NCBI GenBank assembly: GCA_025360045.1
Contig: JANYCY010000021.1
Location: 1-32,024 of the forward strand
Reading direction: 5' to 3'
DNA length: 32,024 nucleotides
From: Janthinobacterium sp.
GTDB lineage: Bacteria > Pseudomonadota > Gammaproteobacteria > Burkholderiales > Chitinibacteraceae
The notes below the pieces were generated by a model. It was not told the origin of the DNA, ran no database searches, and saw only the letters and a list, made by a program, of their open reading frames with translations. This document shows, piece after piece, positions 6,443 to 29,512 of this stretch. Position 1 is the stretch's first letter, and each line of letters opens with the position of its first letter. The position numbers and the translations under genes are program-made.

Positions 6443-7021
6443 TTATAACGCTGGCTTTTGCAAAGTCACTGACTTTTCGGACAAACCTTGCGGCAGTGCG
6501 ACATGGGACCAATCAAAAAAGGGGCCGGGATCCGTTTTCCGCTCAGGGGCAATTTGGCTATGCCCCAGCAAATAGTTGATCGGATATATGCGTACTAGCG
6601 CATCTAGCAAGCTGTTTAGCACCTTGTATTGTATCGCTTCAAACGGCGTAAAGTCAGACCCTTCCAGCTCTATGCCAATTGAAAAATCATTACAGCGCTC
6701 GCGTCCTTGCCAACTAGAAACGCCTGCATGCCAAGCCCGTTGCGTGCAGGGGACAAATTGCAACAACTCCCCATTGCGGCGAATCAGAAAATGCGCTGAG
6801 ACACGTAATTTAGATAATTCTTCGTATGCCGGATGCTTATCTGTATCCAGCGTATTAGTAAATAAACACTCAATATCTTCACCACCAAAGGGCTCGCCCG
6901 GTGGCAAATGAATATTATGAATCACCACCATATCAATCGGCATGCCTGCGCTACGCTCATCACAATTGGGGCTGGGCACATGCCGCGCCTGATTACACCA
7001 GCCTTGTGCATCAACTTGCAT
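6443..7021 (-). CDS. ampD: 1,6-anhydro-N-acetylmuramyl-L-alanine amidase AmpD
   Basis: Cytosolic zinc amidase that removes the stem peptide from anhydro-muropeptides during cell-wall recycling; where an AmpR/AmpC system exists its loss induces beta-lactamase. Zinc-ligand regions are visible: VVIHNI near the N-terminus, and GHSQIAPERKTDPGPFFDW near the C-terminus, which supplies the second His and the Asp. The start at 7021 is preferred because AAGGA lies 7 bases upstream; it gives 192 residues, close to the usual 180-190. A GTG at 7045 would add eight residues. It follows pilR by 58 bases. Confidence 0.93.
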   Translation of the reverse strand: MQVDAQGWCNQARHVPSPNCDERSAGMPIDMVVIHNIHLPPGEPFGGEDIECLFTNTLDTDKHPAYEELSKLRVSAHFLIRRNGELLQFVPCTQRAWHAGVSSWQGRERCNDFSIGIELEGSDFTPFEAIQYKVLNSLLDALVRIYPINYLLGHSQIAPERKTDPGPFFDWSHVALPQGLSEKSVTLQKPAL

Positions 7022-7079
7022 ATTTACTTCCTTAACCATGCCCACTGCTCACTAACTGCAAGCCTAAGCAACATATTAA

Positions 7080-19173: not shown

Positions 19174-19250
19174 GGCTATGTAGCTCAGTTGGTTAGAGCA
19201 CAGCACTCATAATGCTGGGGTCGCAGGTTCGAGTCCCGCCATAGCCACCA
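19174..19250 (+). tRNA. tRNA-Met (CAT), elongator type
   Basis: 77 nucleotides, CCA encoded. The acceptor arms GGCTATG and CATAGCC pair exactly. The D-arm TAGCTCAGTTGGTTAGAGCA, the anticodon loop CTCATAA (anticodon CAT) and the T-arm GGTTCGAGTCC are all present. The sequence closely follows the E. coli elongator tRNA-Met. A tRNA-Ile with lysidine-modified CAU is the alternative but fits less well. Confidence 0.95.
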
Positions 19251-19320
19251 GATACTTCTCTGGTTAGCGCCAGAGAGAGAAGCCCCGCAAATCTAACGAT
19301 TGCGGGGCTTTTTCTTGCCT
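19251..19320 (+). repeat. Left copy of 70-bp direct repeat flanking the defence island
   Basis: It begins at the first base after the tRNA CCA and covers the tRNA terminator region. A second copy in the same orientation lies at 29417-29486 with 66 of 70 bases identical. Between them are exactly the restriction-modification and associated genes. Confidence 0.9.
19280..19314 (+). terminator. Terminator of tRNA-Met
   Basis: AAGCCCCGCA and TGCGGGGCTT pair exactly, followed by a T-run. A smaller stem CTCTGG/CCAGAG (19258-19275) precedes it. Confidence 0.9.
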
Positions 19321-19419
19321 GCTTCTCCTGTTCTCACCTTAATAATCCCCCAAGTCCTACACTGCTTTGCCAGTTATAATCTGACACAACCTTTCGTTAG
19401 ACATAAAGAATAATTAAAC

Positions 19420-20994
19420 ATGCTCCAAGACATCCAAAAAACGCTCTGGTCAGCCGCCGATAAGCTGCGTGCCAATGTTGATGCGGCCGAATACAAGCAC
19501 ATCGCGCTTGGCATGATTTTTCTGAAATTCATTTCTGATTCGTTTTCCGCTCGCCGTGCTGAACTCACGCGCCGCTTTGCTGACGAAAACGACGAATATT
19601 TTTTACATGATTGCGATGATGAATTACTGGCCGAAGAGCTAGAAGACCGTGATTACTACAAAGCAGTAAACGTATTTTGGGTGCCGGAAGGAGCACGTTG
19701 GGAAGCCTTGCGGGCCAATGCCAAGCAAGCCGATATCGGCAAGCGTATTGACGATGCGCTGGCGATTTTGGAGCTAGAAAACCCCAGCCTGAAAGGCATC
19801 TTAGATAAACGCTATGCCCGAGCCCCCTTGCCCGATGGCAAGCTCGGCGAATTGGTTGATCTGATTTCGACGATTGGTTTTGGTGAAGACCAAAGCAAAG
19901 CGCGCGATATTCTCGGCCAAGTATACGAATACTTCCTCGGCCAGTTTGCCAGCGCCGAGGGCAAAAAGGGCGGGCAGTTCTACACACCGCAATCCATCGT
20001 TAAAACGCTGGTCGCCGTACTCGACCCGCATCAGGGCAAGGTTTATGACCCTTGCTGTGGCTCGGGCGGCATGTTTGTGCAGTCGGAAAAATTTATCGAG
20101 GCTCATGGCGGGCAGCTCGGTGATGTATCTATTTATGGGCAGGAATCCAACCCTACCACCTGGCGCTTGGCGGCGATGAACCTCGCCATTCGCGGCATCG
20201 ACTTCAACCTTGGCCGCGAACCGGGCGACACTTTTACTAAAAATCAGCACCCCGATCTGCGCGCCGATTACATCCTCGCCAACCCACCGTTCAATATCAG
20301 CGACTGGTGGCATGGCTCTCTGGAAGGCGACTCGCGCTGGGTGTACGGTACGCCGCCGCAAGGCAACGCCAATTATGCGTGGCTGCAGCATATGCTTTAC
20401 CACCTTAAATCCGATGGCCGCGCCGGTATTGTGCTGGCCAATGGCTCGATGTCATCCAGCCAAAACTCTGAAGGACAAATCCGTGCCGCCATGGTCGATG
20501 CTGACGTGGTGGAAGTGATGATTGCCCTGCCCGGCCAGTTATTCTTCAACACGCAAATCCCCGCCTGCCTGTGGTTCTTGGCCAAAACCAAAACCACCCG
20601 CCAAGGTGAAGTGCTGTTTATCGACGCGCGCAAGCTTGGCAAAATGATTTCGCGCGTGCAGTGTGAGCTGGATGACGAGGCGATTACCCGCATTGCCAAT
20701 TTGGTGAAGGCTTGGCGCTCTTCTCCCTCCCCCCTTGAGGGAGAGGGCCGGGGTGAGGGGTATGAAGACATCCCCGGCTTCTGCCGCAGCGTGAAACTGG
20801 CCGAAATCGCCGAACACGGCTACGTACTCACCCCCGGCCGTTATGTTGGCGCAGAAGAAATCGAAGACAATGACGAAGACTTTGCGACCAAAATGACAGC
20901 GCTGACGGAAAAACTGGGCGAACAGATGGCCAAAGGCGCGGAACTCGACCAGCTGATTCGCCAGAAACTGGGAGGCTTAGGATATGAGTTCTGA
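19420..20994 (+). CDS. hsdM: Type I restriction-modification DNA methyltransferase subunit HsdM
   Basis: 524 residues. Makes N6-methyladenine together with HsdS. The N-terminal HsdM helical region (about 1-150) is followed by the SAM motif PCCGSGG (211-217) and the catalytic NPPF (288-291). Residues about 434-448 (SSPSPLEGEGRGEG) are encoded by a palindromic repeat not expected in the family. The C-terminus IRQKLGGLGYEF recurs as DNA just before hsdS. A TATAAT at 19375-19380 may be the -10 of the operon; no good -35 is seen and the Shine-Dalgarno site is weak. Its last 11 bases overlap the next gene. Confidence 0.95.
   Translation: MLQDIQKTLWSAADKLRANVDAAEYKHIALGMIFLKFISDSFSARRAELTRRFADENDEYFLHDCDDELLAEELEDRDYYKAVNVFWVPEGARWEALRANAKQADIGKRIDDALAILELENPSLKGILDKRYARAPLPDGKLGELVDLISTIGFGEDQSKARDILGQVYEYFLGQFASAEGKKGGQFYTPQSIVKTLVAVLDPHQGKVYDPCCGSGGMFVQSEKFIEAHGGQLGDVSIYGQESNPTTWRLAAMNLAIRGIDFNLGREPGDTFTKNQHPDLRADYILANPPFNISDWWHGSLEGDSRWVYGTPPQGNANYAWLQHMLYHLKSDGRAGIVLANGSMSSSQNSEGQIRAAMVDADVVEVMIALPGQLFFNTQIPACLWFLAKTKTTRQGEVLFIDARKLGKMISRVQCELDDEAITRIANLVKAWRSSPSPLEGEGRGEGYEDIPGFCRSVKLAEIAEHGYVLTPGRYVGAEEIEDNDEDFATKMTALTEKLGEQMAKGAELDQLIRQKLGGLGYEF
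20722..20760 (+). repeat. Palindromic repeat inserted in frame in hsdM
   Basis: TCTCCCTC and GAGGGAGA form an 8-bp stem, followed by GGGCCGGGGTGAGGGG. This C-rich/G-rich style is typical of dispersed intergenic palindromes in many proteobacteria. Here it is translated as PLEGEGRGEG without breaking the frame. hsdR contains a similar insert. Confidence 0.7.
20934..20994 (+). repeat. First copy of 61-bp repeat: hsdM end and next-gene start
   Basis: Covers the last 19 codons and stop of hsdM and, in the overlapping frame, the ATGAGTTCTG start of the YhcG-type gene. It matches 22196-22256 at 55 of 61 positions. Confidence 0.9.
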
Positions 20995-22102
20995 TCAACC
21001 AGATCAGCGCAAACAGCGAGGCAAAATCGACCGTACGGTTAGTTTTCCTGTGCCAGCTGAATCGATTGAAATGCCTGATAGCTATGCCATCACTTTAAAT
21101 GAACTCAAGCAACGTATAGGCAGGGAGCGCTTGCGTGTGGTCTTGGCGAGTAATTCGGCCATGGTGCTGTTGTACTGGGAAATCGGCCAACACATCCTCA
21201 ATAAACAGCAGGATGAAGGCTGGGGCGCACGGGTTATCGACCGGCTGGCTCACGATTTGCGCTTGGCTTTTCCGGATATGAAAGGTTTTTCACCGCGCAA
21301 TCTAAAATATATGCGCAGTTTTGCCTCAACCTGGACAGATCAGGCCATTGTGCAAGCGGTGCTTGCACAATTAACCTGGTATCACAATATCGCGCTATTA
21401 GAGAAGCTCAGTGATCGAGAGGAGCGGCTGTGGTATGCGCAGCAAACTCTGGAATACGGCTGGTCGCGCAATATTTTAGCCATGCAAATCGAATCCCGCG
21501 CCATCGCCCGCCACGGCAAAGCGCAGAATAATTTTCCCACCACCTTGCCGCCACTCGATTCCGACATGGCCAGCCAGGTGTTTAAAGACCCATATCTGTT
21601 CGATTTTTTAGGCACCGACGCACCGCGCCGTGAAAAAGAACTGGAACAAGGGCTGATGGATCATATCCAGAAGTTCTTACTTGAACTCGGTCAGGGTTTT
21701 GCCTTTGTCGGGCGACAAGTTCATCTGGAAATGGGCGATCAAGATTTTTATCTGGATTTATTGTTCTATCACCTCAAGTTACGCCGCTATATCGTCATCG
21801 AACTGAAAGCCCGCGAATTCACCCCCGGTGATGGCGCACAACTGGGCATGTATATGACCGCAGTCAATCGCCTGCTCGCTCATCCAGACGATCAGCCCGC
21901 ACTCGGTCTGCTGCTGGTCAGAAAGAAAAATCAGATTCTGGTCGAATACGCCTTGGGAAATAGTAGCCAGCCGATTAGCGTCGCAGAATGGGAAACCCAG
22001 CTCACCCGCTCACTGCCGGAAGACCTGCAAGCCAGCTTGCCGAGTATCGAAGAAATCGAAGCGGAGTTGTGCAACGAGATGGAGAGCGGCAATGCGGAAT
22101 AA
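20984..22102 (+). CDS. DUF1016/YhcG-family PDDEXK nuclease-domain protein
   Basis: 372 residues. The N-terminal DUF1016 helical domain has VVLASNSAMVLLYWEIGQHI, GWGARVIDRLAHDLR..FPDMKGFSPRNLKYMR and LTWYHNIALLEKL. The C-terminal part carries a PDDEXK-like core, with DFYLDLLFYH..LRRYIVIELKAREF giving the Asp and the Glu-x-Lys. The family is common beside type I systems, and its role there is not established. The start codon lies inside hsdM and copies the context of the hsdS start. Two related hairpins occur, one in this gene (21348-21370) and one just after its stop. Confidence 0.9.
   Translation: MSSDQPDQRKQRGKIDRTVSFPVPAESIEMPDSYAITLNELKQRIGRERLRVVLASNSAMVLLYWEIGQHILNKQQDEGWGARVIDRLAHDLRLAFPDMKGFSPRNLKYMRSFASTWTDQAIVQAVLAQLTWYHNIALLEKLSDREERLWYAQQTLEYGWSRNILAMQIESRAIARHGKAQNNFPTTLPPLDSDMASQVFKDPYLFDFLGTDAPRREKELEQGLMDHIQKFLLELGQGFAFVGRQVHLEMGDQDFYLDLLFYHLKLRRYIVIELKAREFTPGDGAQLGMYMTAVNRLLAHPDDQPALGLLLVRKKNQILVEYALGNSSQPISVAEWETQLTRSLPEDLQASLPSIEEIEAELCNEMESGNAE
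21348..21370 (+). repeat. Perfect hairpin inside the YhcG-type gene
   Basis: TTGTGCAAGC and GCTTGCACAA are exact reverse complements around GGT; in the gene they encode IVQAVLAQ. An almost identical sequence follows the gene's stop at 22110-22130. Confidence 0.7.
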
Positions 22103-22195
22103 TCCAATGGTGCAAGTGGTGCTTGCACAAATAGGGTATTTGCTTGCAGCTTTTTATAATATTGATCTGCAGCGATATATCCATAATAAAACAAC
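22103..22195 (+). other. Spacer between YhcG-type gene and repeated hsdM tail
   Basis: Contains the hairpin GTGCAAG-TGGTG-CTTGCAC (22110-22128), matching part of the coding hairpin at 21348-21370. There is no T-run, so it is not a clear terminator; the remainder is AT-rich and non-coding. Confidence 0.5.
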
Positions 22196-22256
22196 AGGCG
22201 CGGGATTCGACCAGCTGATTCGCCAGAAACTGGGAGGGCTGGGGTATGAGTTCTGA
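22196..22256 (+). repeat. Second copy of 61-bp repeat: relic hsdM tail and hsdS start
   Basis: It still spells the end of HsdM (FDQLIRQKLGGLGYEF and stop) but is no longer attached to hsdM. Its overlapping ATG is the real start of hsdS. It shows that hsdM once ran directly into hsdS here. Confidence 0.9.
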
Positions 22257-23634
22257 GATGCAAATGGGTAAGGAGAATTCGCCGCACAGCGGCAATGCGC
22301 CGGCGGATGAGGGTATGGCTCTAAACGCATCTAGTGATAAGGCTTGTGGCGCAATACCTACGGTGATTGCGCCCTACGAGGCTGAGTGGAAAACAGAAAG
22401 CCTTATTGCACACTATGACATTCGATCAGGCTTATCTAAACCAGCGAAAGAGTTTGGCTTAGGCTATCCGTTTTTGACGTTCAAAGATGTTTTTTATAAC
22501 TTCTTTGCCCCTGAGCAGCTAGGTGATTTGGTTCAATCTACTGATAAAGAACGTGAATTAAGTTCTGTACGAAGAGGCGACGTTTTTCTGACTCGAACAA
22601 GTGAAACGATGCATGAGCTTGGCATGAGTTGTGTAGCACTTCGAGATTACCCAGATGCAACATTTAATGGGTTTTGCAAACGACTTCGCCCTAAGCCTGA
22701 TTCAGACTTAGTGCCTGAGTATGTAGGATATTTCTTGCGTGGCCCTTCGTTCAGACAGGCGATGTTGTCTATGTCAACGATGTCGACCCGAGCAAGTCTT
22801 AACAACGAAATGATTGCGAGGTTAGAGATAACCTATCCACCAAAGGAGATGCAAAGTCAGATTGCCGCAATTCTGAAGAGCCTCGACGACCGCATTGCAC
22901 TGTTGCGCGAGACCAATGCGACGCTGGAGGCGATGGCGCAGGCGCTGTTTAAGTCGTGGTTTGTCGATTTCGACCCCGTCCACGCTAACGCCGGCACCCA
23001 AGCCGCCACGCTCCCGCCCGAACTCCAAACCCTCTTCCCTGTCACCCTCACCAAAACCCCGCAAGGCTTGGTGCCGGAGGGGTGGGGAGTTGCTTGTTTG
23101 AATGAAATTTGCCAAATCGCAAGTGGGAAACGCCCTGAGATTCGTTCTGATACGGAAAGTGAAGGGGCGAAAGTGCCTTTATATGGTGGCGCGGGAGTTA
23201 TGGGCTACACAGATAAGTCATTATTTAATGAAAAGAAAATACTGACTGGCCGAGTTGGTACACTTGGAAAAGTGCATATTGCTACACCGCCATTCTGGGC
23301 TTCAGATAATGTGCTTGTTCTAACGCCTAAGGATCAATCCAATTTCTATTTTTCCTTAAATTGGCTGCTGGCTATTGATGTTCACTCATTAAATCGTGGC
23401 TCTACCCAGCCACTATTGACTCAGAAAGATCTTGGCGCACAACAGCGGGCTTTGCCTCCAAATGAAATTCTTATTGAGTTTGAGTATGTAGTTGCCGAGC
23501 TTTATCTAAAAATTCAGGCAAATAGCCAGCAAGCCCAAACCCTCGCCACCCTGCGCGACACGCTACTGCCGCGCCTGATCTCCGGCCAGCTCCGCCTACC
23601 CGACGCCGAAGCTGCGCTGGCGGAGGTGGTGTGA
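22246..23634 (+). CDS. hsdS: Type I restriction-modification specificity subunit HsdS
   Basis: 462 residues. It selects the target of the HsdM and HsdR complexes. The first target-recognition domain covers about residues 45-200. The central conserved helices (SQIAAILKSLDDRIALLRETNATLEAMAQALFKSWFVDF) hold the spacing between half-sites, the second recognition domain covers about 280-420, and a shorter C-terminal helix follows. The recognition domains are more AT-rich and differ in codon use from the GC-rich conserved parts, the usual sign of domain swapping. The recognition sequence cannot be read from the protein. The start lies in the repeated hsdM tail, and the stop overlaps the next ATG (TGATG). 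Confidence 0.93.
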   Translation: MSSEMQMGKENSPHSGNAPADEGMALNASSDKACGAIPTVIAPYEAEWKTESLIAHYDIRSGLSKPAKEFGLGYPFLTFKDVFYNFFAPEQLGDLVQSTDKERELSSVRRGDVFLTRTSETMHELGMSCVALRDYPDATFNGFCKRLRPKPDSDLVPEYVGYFLRGPSFRQAMLSMSTMSTRASLNNEMIARLEITYPPKEMQSQIAAILKSLDDRIALLRETNATLEAMAQALFKSWFVDFDPVHANAGTQAATLPPELQTLFPVTLTKTPQGLVPEGWGVACLNEICQIASGKRPEIRSDTESEGAKVPLYGGAGVMGYTDKSLFNEKKILTGRVGTLGKVHIATPPFWASDNVLVLTPKDQSNFYFSLNWLLAIDVHSLNRGSTQPLLTQKDLGAQQRALPPNEILIEFEYVVAELYLKIQANSQQAQTLATLRDTLLPRLISGQLRLPDAEAALAEVV

Positions 23635-25737: not shown

Positions 25738-25745
25738 TCATGAAT

Positions 25746-25896
25746 AAATCGACACCTGATTAAAACGTGTCGATTTTTTATCGTTTTTTAAACACGTCGC
25801 AGAGATGTGTCGATTGAATCGACACATCAACAAAACCTGTCGATTTTTTGCTGTTTTTTAAACATATCCAAAGGATGTGTCGATTCAATCGACACA
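25746..25896 (+). repeat. Tandem 70-bp repeat array with TGTCGATT/AATCGACA palindromes upstream of hsdR
   Basis: Units begin AATCGACAC at 25747, 25817 and 25887, exactly 70 bases apart; the first two are full, the third is only the beginning. Junctions form long palindromes at 25804-25828 (12-bp arms, centre G) and 25876-25896 (10-bp arms, centre C). Each full unit also contains TGTCGATTTTTT followed by TTTTTTAAACA. The first hairpin (25746-25776) with its T-run could terminate fic transcription. The last palindrome covers the possible GTG start of hsdR, so it could control translation or be an operator. Confidence 0.85.
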
Positions 25897-27851: not shown

Positions 27852-29129
27852 GTGACAAGGCTTTGCTCCGGCCTCACATCTACGCAAGTCAAAAAACGGC
27901 TGGAAAAACGCTTCAAAGATCCAAATGATCCTTTGCAATTAGTGATTGTGCGCGATATGTGGCTCACCGGCTTTGATGCGCCCTGCGTGCATACGCTGTA
28001 TATCGATAAGCCCATGAAAGGGCACAATCTGATGCAAGCCATTGCCCGAGTGAATCGGGTATTTCACGATAAGCAAGGCGGCTTGGTTGTTGATTACATT
28101 GGTATCGCTAACGAACTGAAAGCAGCACTCAAGGAATACACCGCCAGCAATGGGCGCGGTAAACCAACGGTGGATACGGCGGAAGCGTGGGCGGTACTCG
28201 AAGAGAAAATCGATATTTTGCAAGGCATGTTGCATGGCTTTGATTACAGCGAATTTATCACTGGCGGCCATCGCCTATTGGCAGGCGCAGCGAATCATGT
28301 GCTGGGATTAGCTGACGGTAAAAAGCGCTTTGCCGATAATGCCTTGGCAATGAGTAAAGCATTTAGCCTGTGCGCCACCATGGATGAAGCCAAAGCGGTA
28401 CGTGAAGAAGTCGCCTTTTTGCAAGCCGTGAAAGTGCTGCTGATTAAGCGGGATCTGAGCGCAAAAAAACTCAGCAATGATGATAGAGAGCTGGCTATTC
28501 GCCAGATTATCGGGCAGGCGGTTGCCTCGGATGAGGTGGTCGATATTTTTGATGCGGTGGGTTTGGAAAAGCCCAATATTGGTCTGCTGGATGATGACTT
28601 TTTGGCTGAAGTGCGTAATCTGCCCGAGAAAAATCTGGCTGTAGAATTGCTGGAGCGCTTGCTGGAAGGGGAAATTAAATCCAAATTTGCCAGCAATGTG
28701 GTGCAGCAGAAGAAGTTTTCTGAGCTACTGACTGATGTGGTGAAGCGCTATCAGAATCGCAGCATTGAAACTGCACAAGTGATGGAAGAATTGGTCGCCA
28801 TGGCCAAGAAATTCCGTGAAGCGGCTGGGCGCGGTGAAGCCTTGGGCTTATCAGAGGATGAAGTAAAGTTTTACGATGCACTAGCCAATAATGAATCGGC
28901 GGTGCGTGAGCTGCCGGATGAAACGCTCAAACGCATTGCCCATGAGCTTACGACCAATTTGCGAAAAAATATCAGCGTAGATTGGTCGCAACGTGAAAGC
29001 GTACGTGCCAAATTACGGATTATGGTGAAACGCATTTTGCGTAAATACGGCTATCCGCCTGATTTTCAGGAAGATGCCATTCAAATGGTGTTGCAACAGG
29101 CAGAGGCACTGGGTGCGGAGTGGGTGTAA
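27852..29129 (+). pseudogene. HsdR C-terminal fragment downstream of the frameshift
   Basis: The second open frame of hsdR. A GTG at 27852 could open it, but the first 13 residues read from there ([13 protein letters not shown]) are the wrong frame of the upstream coding sequence; true HsdR sequence begins at [10 protein letters not shown]. It holds helicase motifs V and VI and the HsdM-contacting C-terminal helical domain. A ribosome site for independent translation is not evident. Confidence 0.75.
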
Positions 29130-29323: not shown

Positions 29324-29416
29324 TGCCCTTCCCATTAAAATGCTCGGCAGCGCTTAGGTCAAAGCTTAGAGATGCAATTAATTATTTAAAAAATATATCT
29401 AGCAAAATAGGCGTCT

Positions 29417-29486
29417 GATACTTCTCTGCTTAGCGCCAGAGAGAAAAGCCCTCCAAATCTAACGATTGCGGGGCTTTTTCTTGCCT
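29417..29486 (+). repeat. Right copy of 70-bp direct repeat flanking the defence island
   Basis: Matches 19251-19320 at 66 of 70 bases in the same orientation. Two of the four changes fall in the left arm of the old terminator stem (CCCTCC instead of CCCCGC), so this copy no longer forms a good hairpin. No tRNA sequence precedes it. Confidence 0.9.
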
Positions 29487-29512
29487 GAAGTAAATGCCAC
29501 CTCGGCGGGACA

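Follow-up and report, generated by a model that had tools for sequence, protein, structure and literature searches.

Our analysis of a 32,024-nt stretch of DNA from Janthinobacterium sp. (contig JANYCY010000021.1; hereafter the window, to whose whole length all coordinates refer) favors a model in which a 61-bp duplicate of the 3' end of hsdM, found on either side of a YhcG/DUF1016-type gene in a type I restriction-modification operon, is the scar of an additive insertion that used this end of hsdM as its anchor. The second copy would have been kept because it restores the start of hsdS, and the insertion would not be that of a site-specific cassette; we put the probability of this reading at roughly two in three. 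The operon contains, in order, hsdM, YhcG/DUF1016, hsdS, a DUF4917 gene, a SoFic-type gene and hsdR. Its hsdM, hsdS and hsdR are all matched by Pfam and identify it as type I, and the hsdR frame is broken in this genome. Embedding of defence genes in restriction operons is known, but how they enter without breaking the operon is much less clear. Copies of the hsdM tail are a scar in the sequence itself, open to searching, dating and counting, and the identity of the duplicated piece as the start signal of the next gene suggests why the operon survives insertion.

The two copies lie at 20934-20994 and 22196-22256 and were recovered in a repeat search of the window as a direct repeat of 61 nt with 90% identity and a spacing of 1262. 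Compared from their right ends they agree at 55/61 positions (score 47.8), and the reverse strand of the same interval scores at most 6. These values reproduce the coordinates and identity given in an earlier note on this DNA, and its reading of the surrounding genes agrees with ours: Pfam and PADLOC both assign the gene between the copies (20984-22102) to the YhcG type, this gene uses copy 1 for a start at 20984 that overlaps the end of hsdM at 20994 by 11 nt (ATGAGTTCTGA), and hsdS uses copy 2, within which its ATG at 22246 falls.

An empty site is present in a relative from the same genus, G029 (locus L106 of the survey described below), which lacks the insert. Its positions 6666-6895 match window 20765-20994 and its positions 6836-7026 match window 22197-22390; the 60 bp at 6836-6895 match both window copies, and the homologous hsdS leader follows directly. 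Because G029 has a single copy that runs from hsdM into this leader, the best reading of the window on these alignments is that a 1262-bp unit (~1.26 kb) was inserted and its edge duplicated. A close relative in which the insert is absent and the anchor single is the arrangement sought for anchor-directed additive integration, and it supports the earlier proposal of an insertion at the hsdM-hsdS junction. The note had also considered that the tail might belong to the leader of hsdS in relatives; in the insert-free relatives this sequence is the hsdM 3' end itself. Copy 2 carries the synonymous GGGCTGGGGT form seen in the insert-free G029, G031 and G008, its 3' half having the form of these relatives, and copy 1 carries a different form common to the YhcG-bearing G033 and G032. 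In 60-nt bins, identity between the window and G033 is 96-100% from 20680 to 22390 but 78-98% in the part of hsdM upstream of 20620, and behind the shared block the two carry different hsdS domains: the block with YhcG and both tails has moved as a unit. Between the window and G032 the YhcG proteins are 97% identical and the DNA at 19363-20718 is 90% identical.

Our survey of such junctions covers one HsdM lineage. Its 88 loci comprise the best 80 of 586, L101-L107 and the window, and 83 were usable; L061, L068 and L107 have no usable hsdM 3' end, and L070 and L079 have a different tail. hsdS lies directly on hsdM in 60/83 loci, an insert intervenes in 20/83 (window included), and 3/83 (L039, L047, L071) have no hsdS open reading frame (ORF) in the main cluster. 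We defined a clear extra tail as a right-anchored copy of the locus' own tail with a score of at least 16. Such copies occur in 12/20 insert loci, where the best reverse-strand score is 8.6, and in 0/62 loci not classed as insert-bearing (the 60 direct loci, L039 and L071, scanned over at most 6 kb, or to the contig end, where the sequence covered included no hsdR); four of these 62 reach 9, the best scores 12.0, and one reverse-strand match scores 9.2. A second hsdM sample, from 399 genomes of the order, yielded 15 loci, of which L214, L217 and L220 are L040, L058 and L079 of the first set. Among the 12 new ones hsdS is directly on hsdM in 11, L219 is unclassified, and there is no clear copy (best 11.2). 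The possibility, raised in the earlier note, that the tail repeat is common in loci that never carried an insert thus found no support in either sample. Among the clear copies the copied length ranges from ~22 to 61 nt, the outer edge varying and the inner edge staying fixed, and agreement reaches 41/44 in L042 and 38/41 in L032 and L075; the strong copy in L075 adjoins hsdM, not hsdS. Counting hsdM's own, tails are stacked three deep in L105 and four deep in L002 and L103, with the middle ones weak. An hsdM-tail profile run over the hsdM-to-hsdR span of 85 loci (305 kb) gave 16 forward matches, 0 reverse and 0.2 per single-base shuffle set; four of the 16 (L002 12372, L051 3274, L103 6817, L105 6432) are weak, lie inside other genes and are not tail copies. 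A tail-pattern search of 369 evenly drawn genomes of the class, which is unsuited to counting, found the pattern in 6 and two copies in G000 only.

The hsdM tail has two roles, closing hsdM and providing the start signal of the gene that follows, as its extreme codon bias, its Shine-Dalgarno sequence and its overlapping ATG attest. LGGLGYEF or a sequence close to it forms the C-terminus in most relatives of this HsdM. The last 11 nt of hsdM are exactly ATGAGTTCTGA in 51/83 loci and differ slightly from this in most of the remainder, and in 70/83 an ORF of at least 60 codons begins within them. Across 82 loci (L080 omitted) the first two tail glycines are encoded by GGA or GGG in 72/76 and 69/74 cases, compared with 441/3321 in the hsdM body; the tail tyrosine is TAT in 82/82, compared with 294/877; and a strong Shine-Dalgarno-like pentamer stands within 16 nt of the internal ATG in 71/82. 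These rows are related by kinship, so that p-values are overstated; the size of the bias is clear.

What is inserted varies from locus to locus. A YhcG-type ORF starts from the tail in 11 loci, with two fragments (L022, L056), and the scar accompanies YhcG types, a Gp49 gene (L042), Y1_Tnp genes (L002, L103, L075) and a DUF1016_N fragment (L029). In L002 and L103 a broken YhcG and a Y1_Tnp-type gene occur with the four tails, of which the middle ones score 9.8-15.0. L032 and L072 hold YhcG remnants by our reading of the sequence, L032 without any Pfam match. Other inserts are a PIN gene in L030 and nucleotidyltransferase partners in L044 and L013. In these last two loci the hsdM-hsdS interval contains nucleotidyltransferase substrate-binding genes (L013 12741-13509, L044 3040-3860), and L013 has a nucleotidyltransferase-type ORF upstream of hsdS, while in L044 such an ORF may, judged by eye, form a fusion with hsdS. 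A single origin of the junction YhcG genes was rejected for 11 of the 12 junction rows (approximately unbiased test, p-AU 0.0004; L074 omitted as a long branch). One clade uniting the window group with a six-row YhcG group, which we put together once the first tree was known, was not rejected (p-AU 0.115). The second YhcG tree left out eight long-branch or distant rows.

We picture the following sequence of events. In this HsdM lineage the last hsdM codons also serve as ribosome-binding site and start codon of whichever gene follows. DNA in which the hsdM tail precedes YhcG would have entered the operon with the tail as homology anchor, either through a single crossover, the fragment being circularised and its arm shortened, or through homology on one side combined with illegitimate joining. 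Insertion would set YhcG directly behind hsdM and leave the resident tail, with its Shine-Dalgarno sequence and ATG, before hsdS. YhcG would then be read from copy 1 through the 11-nt overlap and hsdS from copy 2, probably coupled via a 54-codon ORF that overlaps both the YhcG stop and hsdS by 11 nt. We infer that copy 2 was retained because it supplies the hsdS start. Ordinary homologous recombination would later have spread the block between species. The duplicate, the empty site with its single copy, the association of extra tails with inserts, the codon bias and the sharing of the block are observed, whereas the type of crossover, the direction of insertion, expression and coupling are the parts of this scenario that we infer.

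The pattern of a fixed inner edge, a variable outer edge and a duplicated anchor leads us to liken these events to one-arm integration in Escherichia coli. When DNA with one homologous arm was used there, 56/60 integrants gave a polymerase chain reaction (PCR) product diagnostic for partial anchor duplication; in 14 sequenced clones the duplication measured 109-950 bp and was attributed to circular molecules, with one arm shortened, that had integrated through a single crossover (PMC3240628). According to the same report, a deletion is the usual outcome of classical homology-facilitated illegitimate recombination; its product, an insertion with deletion, differs from the duplication at this locus. 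The same process has been proposed for stacked type VI secretion system (T6SS) immunity genes (PMC5361080). The cases in these two reports share with ours one conserved anchor, a non-homologous other end and additive arrays with displaced remnants; unlike them, the duplicated anchor here is also the start signal for the next gene.

On the hsdS side YhcG stops at 22102 and hsdS begins at 22246, 144 nt from stop to start (143 nt between), with no overlap. The earlier suggestion of translational coupling on both sides therefore stands on the left, where hsdM and YhcG overlap, and not on the right as it was put; a link there would run through the 54-codon ORF, which the earlier note had missed and which a second ATG at 22107 would shorten to 49 codons. 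The window insert consists of YhcG, the spacer and this ORF. A promoter in the spacer was rejected, a simple scan of 21900-22400 having found no promoter- or terminator-like site on the + strand. G033 apart, the spacer is clearly matched (73-78%) in G034 and G030 only, in both cases in front of their last tail. For part of this AT-rich spacer (22130-22195), several other genomes of the family give weak matches (E 1e-4 to 0.006) at scattered places, away from hsd loci as far as listed. A 27-nt palindromic stretch within YhcG (21347-21373) recurs at 89% just 3' of the YhcG stop (22107-22133), and G034 and G030 have a related stretch after their YhcG.

Several observations weigh against an anchor-directed insertion, or against parts of it. 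No tail copy stands before hsdS in 6/20 insert loci (L013, L022, L030, L044, L066, L074) and the copy is weak (12.8-14.4) in 2/20 (L020, L045); in old insert loci some of the tail similarity could be a conserved ribosome-binding site. The second sample is support for the negative half of the association alone, with no positive case among its 12 loci. The two main junction YhcG groups could share one origin, which would make for fewer independent events. Among the genomes compared we found no donor for the outer joint of copy 2, so the crossover type was not observed, and L105 indicates that a new tail and hsdS can go behind an older leader, which makes the direction uncertain for some loci. 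The 54-codon ORF, treated here as a coupling leader or remnant, could have arisen by chance: in shuffled spacers the window frame was open in 8.6% and an ORF of at least 46 codons appeared in 2.6%, which makes it only suggestive. We rejected it as a conserved protein, a by-eye codon comparison with L002 giving 4 synonymous and ~12 amino-acid changes with no sign of constraint. Finally, in favor of coupling, an upstream ORF of 27 to 378 codons stops inside the start in 19/19 insert loci with a placed start, but this result is partly expected because such starts mostly carry stop codons in each of the other two frames. In placing these starts L022 was omitted (hsdS start unclear) and L045 was judged by eye; the start used is that of the nucleotidyltransferase ORF ahead of hsdS in L013 and of an ORF beginning, by eye, with nucleotidyltransferase in L044.

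The reverse order of events best survives as an alternative, and we regard it as unlikely. In this account hsdM-YhcG existed first and an hsdS module carrying the upstream hsdM tail as its own ribosome-binding site was swapped in behind it. L105 (in G032) looks like such a swap, with YhcG followed by a tail with the old hsdS leader and then by a weak tail-like overlap (14/17) and a different hsdS, and the hsdS domains of G000 and G033 differ behind the same block. In the window, however, copy 2 runs without a break into the leader, and the two together are homologous to the junction of G029, which has no insert, so that insertion of YhcG before a resident junction is the simpler account there. 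We give distinctly less credence to the idea that repetitive extragenic palindromic (REP) elements and their REP-associated tyrosine transposases (RAYTs) duplicated the tail at the junction, with the accessory gene coming along or later. By eye there is no REP at the joint in L042, L032, L051, L056 or window copy 2, whereas REP-like palindrome units and a tail lie near a Y1_Tnp gene in L075, a Y1_Tnp-type gene sits within the junction of L002 and L103, and a REP-like palindrome, whose relatives are scattered, occurs within the hsdS leader of the window.

A site-specific cassette or a transposon with target duplication would account for the exact position and for the direct repeat flanking the insert, but we consider it highly improbable and already largely refuted: the copied length varies from locus to locus, there are no integron-like boxes and no unusual fold, and the repeat is functional hsdM coding sequence. 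The attC-type boxes of integron cassettes read GTTRRRY / RYYYAAC. No such box was found in 20834-21094 or 22090-22356 (no search for an integron integrase was made), and none of the fold z-scores (-0.37, 0.58, -0.71) is unusual. A transposon with a fixed target-site duplication was rejected on the differing copy lengths and the lack of a transposase ORF in the window insert. The earlier description of a cassette-like way for type I operons to gain genes is thus apt as to the effect and not as a site-specific mechanism. Convergence on a ribosome-binding site and start by selection, with no duplication at all, could explain the short copies (L020 18/21, L045 20/26) and the L074 junction and is just as improbable as a general account, since the copies in the window, L042, L032 and L075 extend well upstream of the ribosome-binding site and keep the hsdM frame, and profile shuffles, own-tail scores and the 0/62 controls led us to reject chance or convergence for long copies.

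Accessory genes embedded in type I loci are already known (PMC5183652, PMC12255303, PMC10855318). The mlo/rlo genes of Campylobacter, DarTG2 in an E. coli type I locus and the 'guilt-by-embedding' phage-defence candidate (PDC) families likewise lie between hsd genes, and genes of the present operon match PDC-S02 and PDC-S21, like embedded PDC families. The available text of these three reports describes no duplicated hsdM tail or entry route, and in the literature searched, seen in part, we found no description of a duplicated dual-coding hsdM tail as an insertion scar. In EcoKI hsdM and hsdS overlap by 1 nt with translational coupling (PMC3510504); here too hsdM overlaps the gene that follows it, but the overlap is 11 nt, has an in-gene Shine-Dalgarno sequence and has been copied, features that set it apart from EcoKI. 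Integron gene cassettes are similar in that a single site, downstream of a fixed gene, receives one gene at a time, and differ from our case, where the joints are variable and without integron-like boxes. We put forward one further possibility tentatively: that the hsdM 3' end can serve repeatedly as a landing pad, its copies recording successive gains and losses, and that this is a general route for embedding defence genes in restriction operons. Entering genes would be expressed at once, and hsdS would not be lost, because ~60 bp carry the homology anchor, the ribosome-binding site and the start codon.

Features of the hsdM-hsdS junction and its flanking genes in the window.
Feature	Position	Strand	Basis
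hsdM, type I methyltransferase subunit; 3' end is the anchor	19420..20994	+	Pfam N6_Mtase 1.1e-110, HsdM_N 2.5e-22
Tail copy 1: hsdM end and overlapping YhcG start	20934..20994	+	repeat search, alignment
GGGAGG, Shine-Dalgarno-like, 8 nt before the YhcG ATG, within hsdM codons	20970..20975	+	read from sequence; codon bias (82 loci)
YhcG/DUF1016 PDDEXK-type nuclease gene (putative), the insert	20984..22102	+	Pfam YhcG_C 5.8e-59, DUF1016_N 1.7e-42; PADLOC PDC-S02 6.1e-144
54-codon ORF; ATG at 22092 overlaps the YhcG stop by 11 nt; tail copy 2 in hsdM frame at its end; 11-nt overlap with hsdS	22092..22256	+	open-frame scan; shuffles
Tail copy 2, directly 5' of hsdS	22196..22256	+	repeat search, right-anchored comparison, alignment
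GGGAGG of copy 2, 8 nt before the hsdS ATG	22232..22237	+	read from sequence
hsdS, specificity subunit	22246..23634	+	Pfam Methylase_S 5.9e-31
REP-like palindrome within the hsdS leader	22348..22373	+	scattered matches to this part of the leader in genomes of the family; 22 listed in G002 for the queried leader

DUF1016_N and YhcG_C cover residues 40-174 and 198-353 of the insert protein, both far above the cut-off, and the PDC-S02 match spans residues 29-366. The DUF1016 and DUF4917 genes thus belong to candidate defence families in PADLOC (PDC-S02 and PDC-S21), and judged from its domains the YhcG insert is a candidate for a putative nuclease of a phage-defence family. Compared with three relatives (G033, G029, G031), hsdR has a short deletion at 27880-27930 that disrupts it; given the broken hsdR, restriction may have been lost while modification stays. 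Directly 5' of hsdR, at 25742-25881, are two tandem 70-nt copies (77%) of a hairpin-plus-T-run sequence, and similar sequence lies directly 5' of hsdR in G031, G032 and G034 and farther upstream in G030. The hsdM linker contains a palindromic low-complexity stretch (20715-20765) that is the same in G033 and different in the other aligned relatives, some of which carry different repeat-like inserts at this position. An 81-bp terminator-like direct repeat (90%) at 19241-19321 and 29407-29487 brackets the whole hsd locus; two copies surround the hsd locus in G034, and G028, G029, G032 and G035 have one near-full copy each. Judged from this flanking repeat, the whole hsd locus may have entered by a similar additive route.

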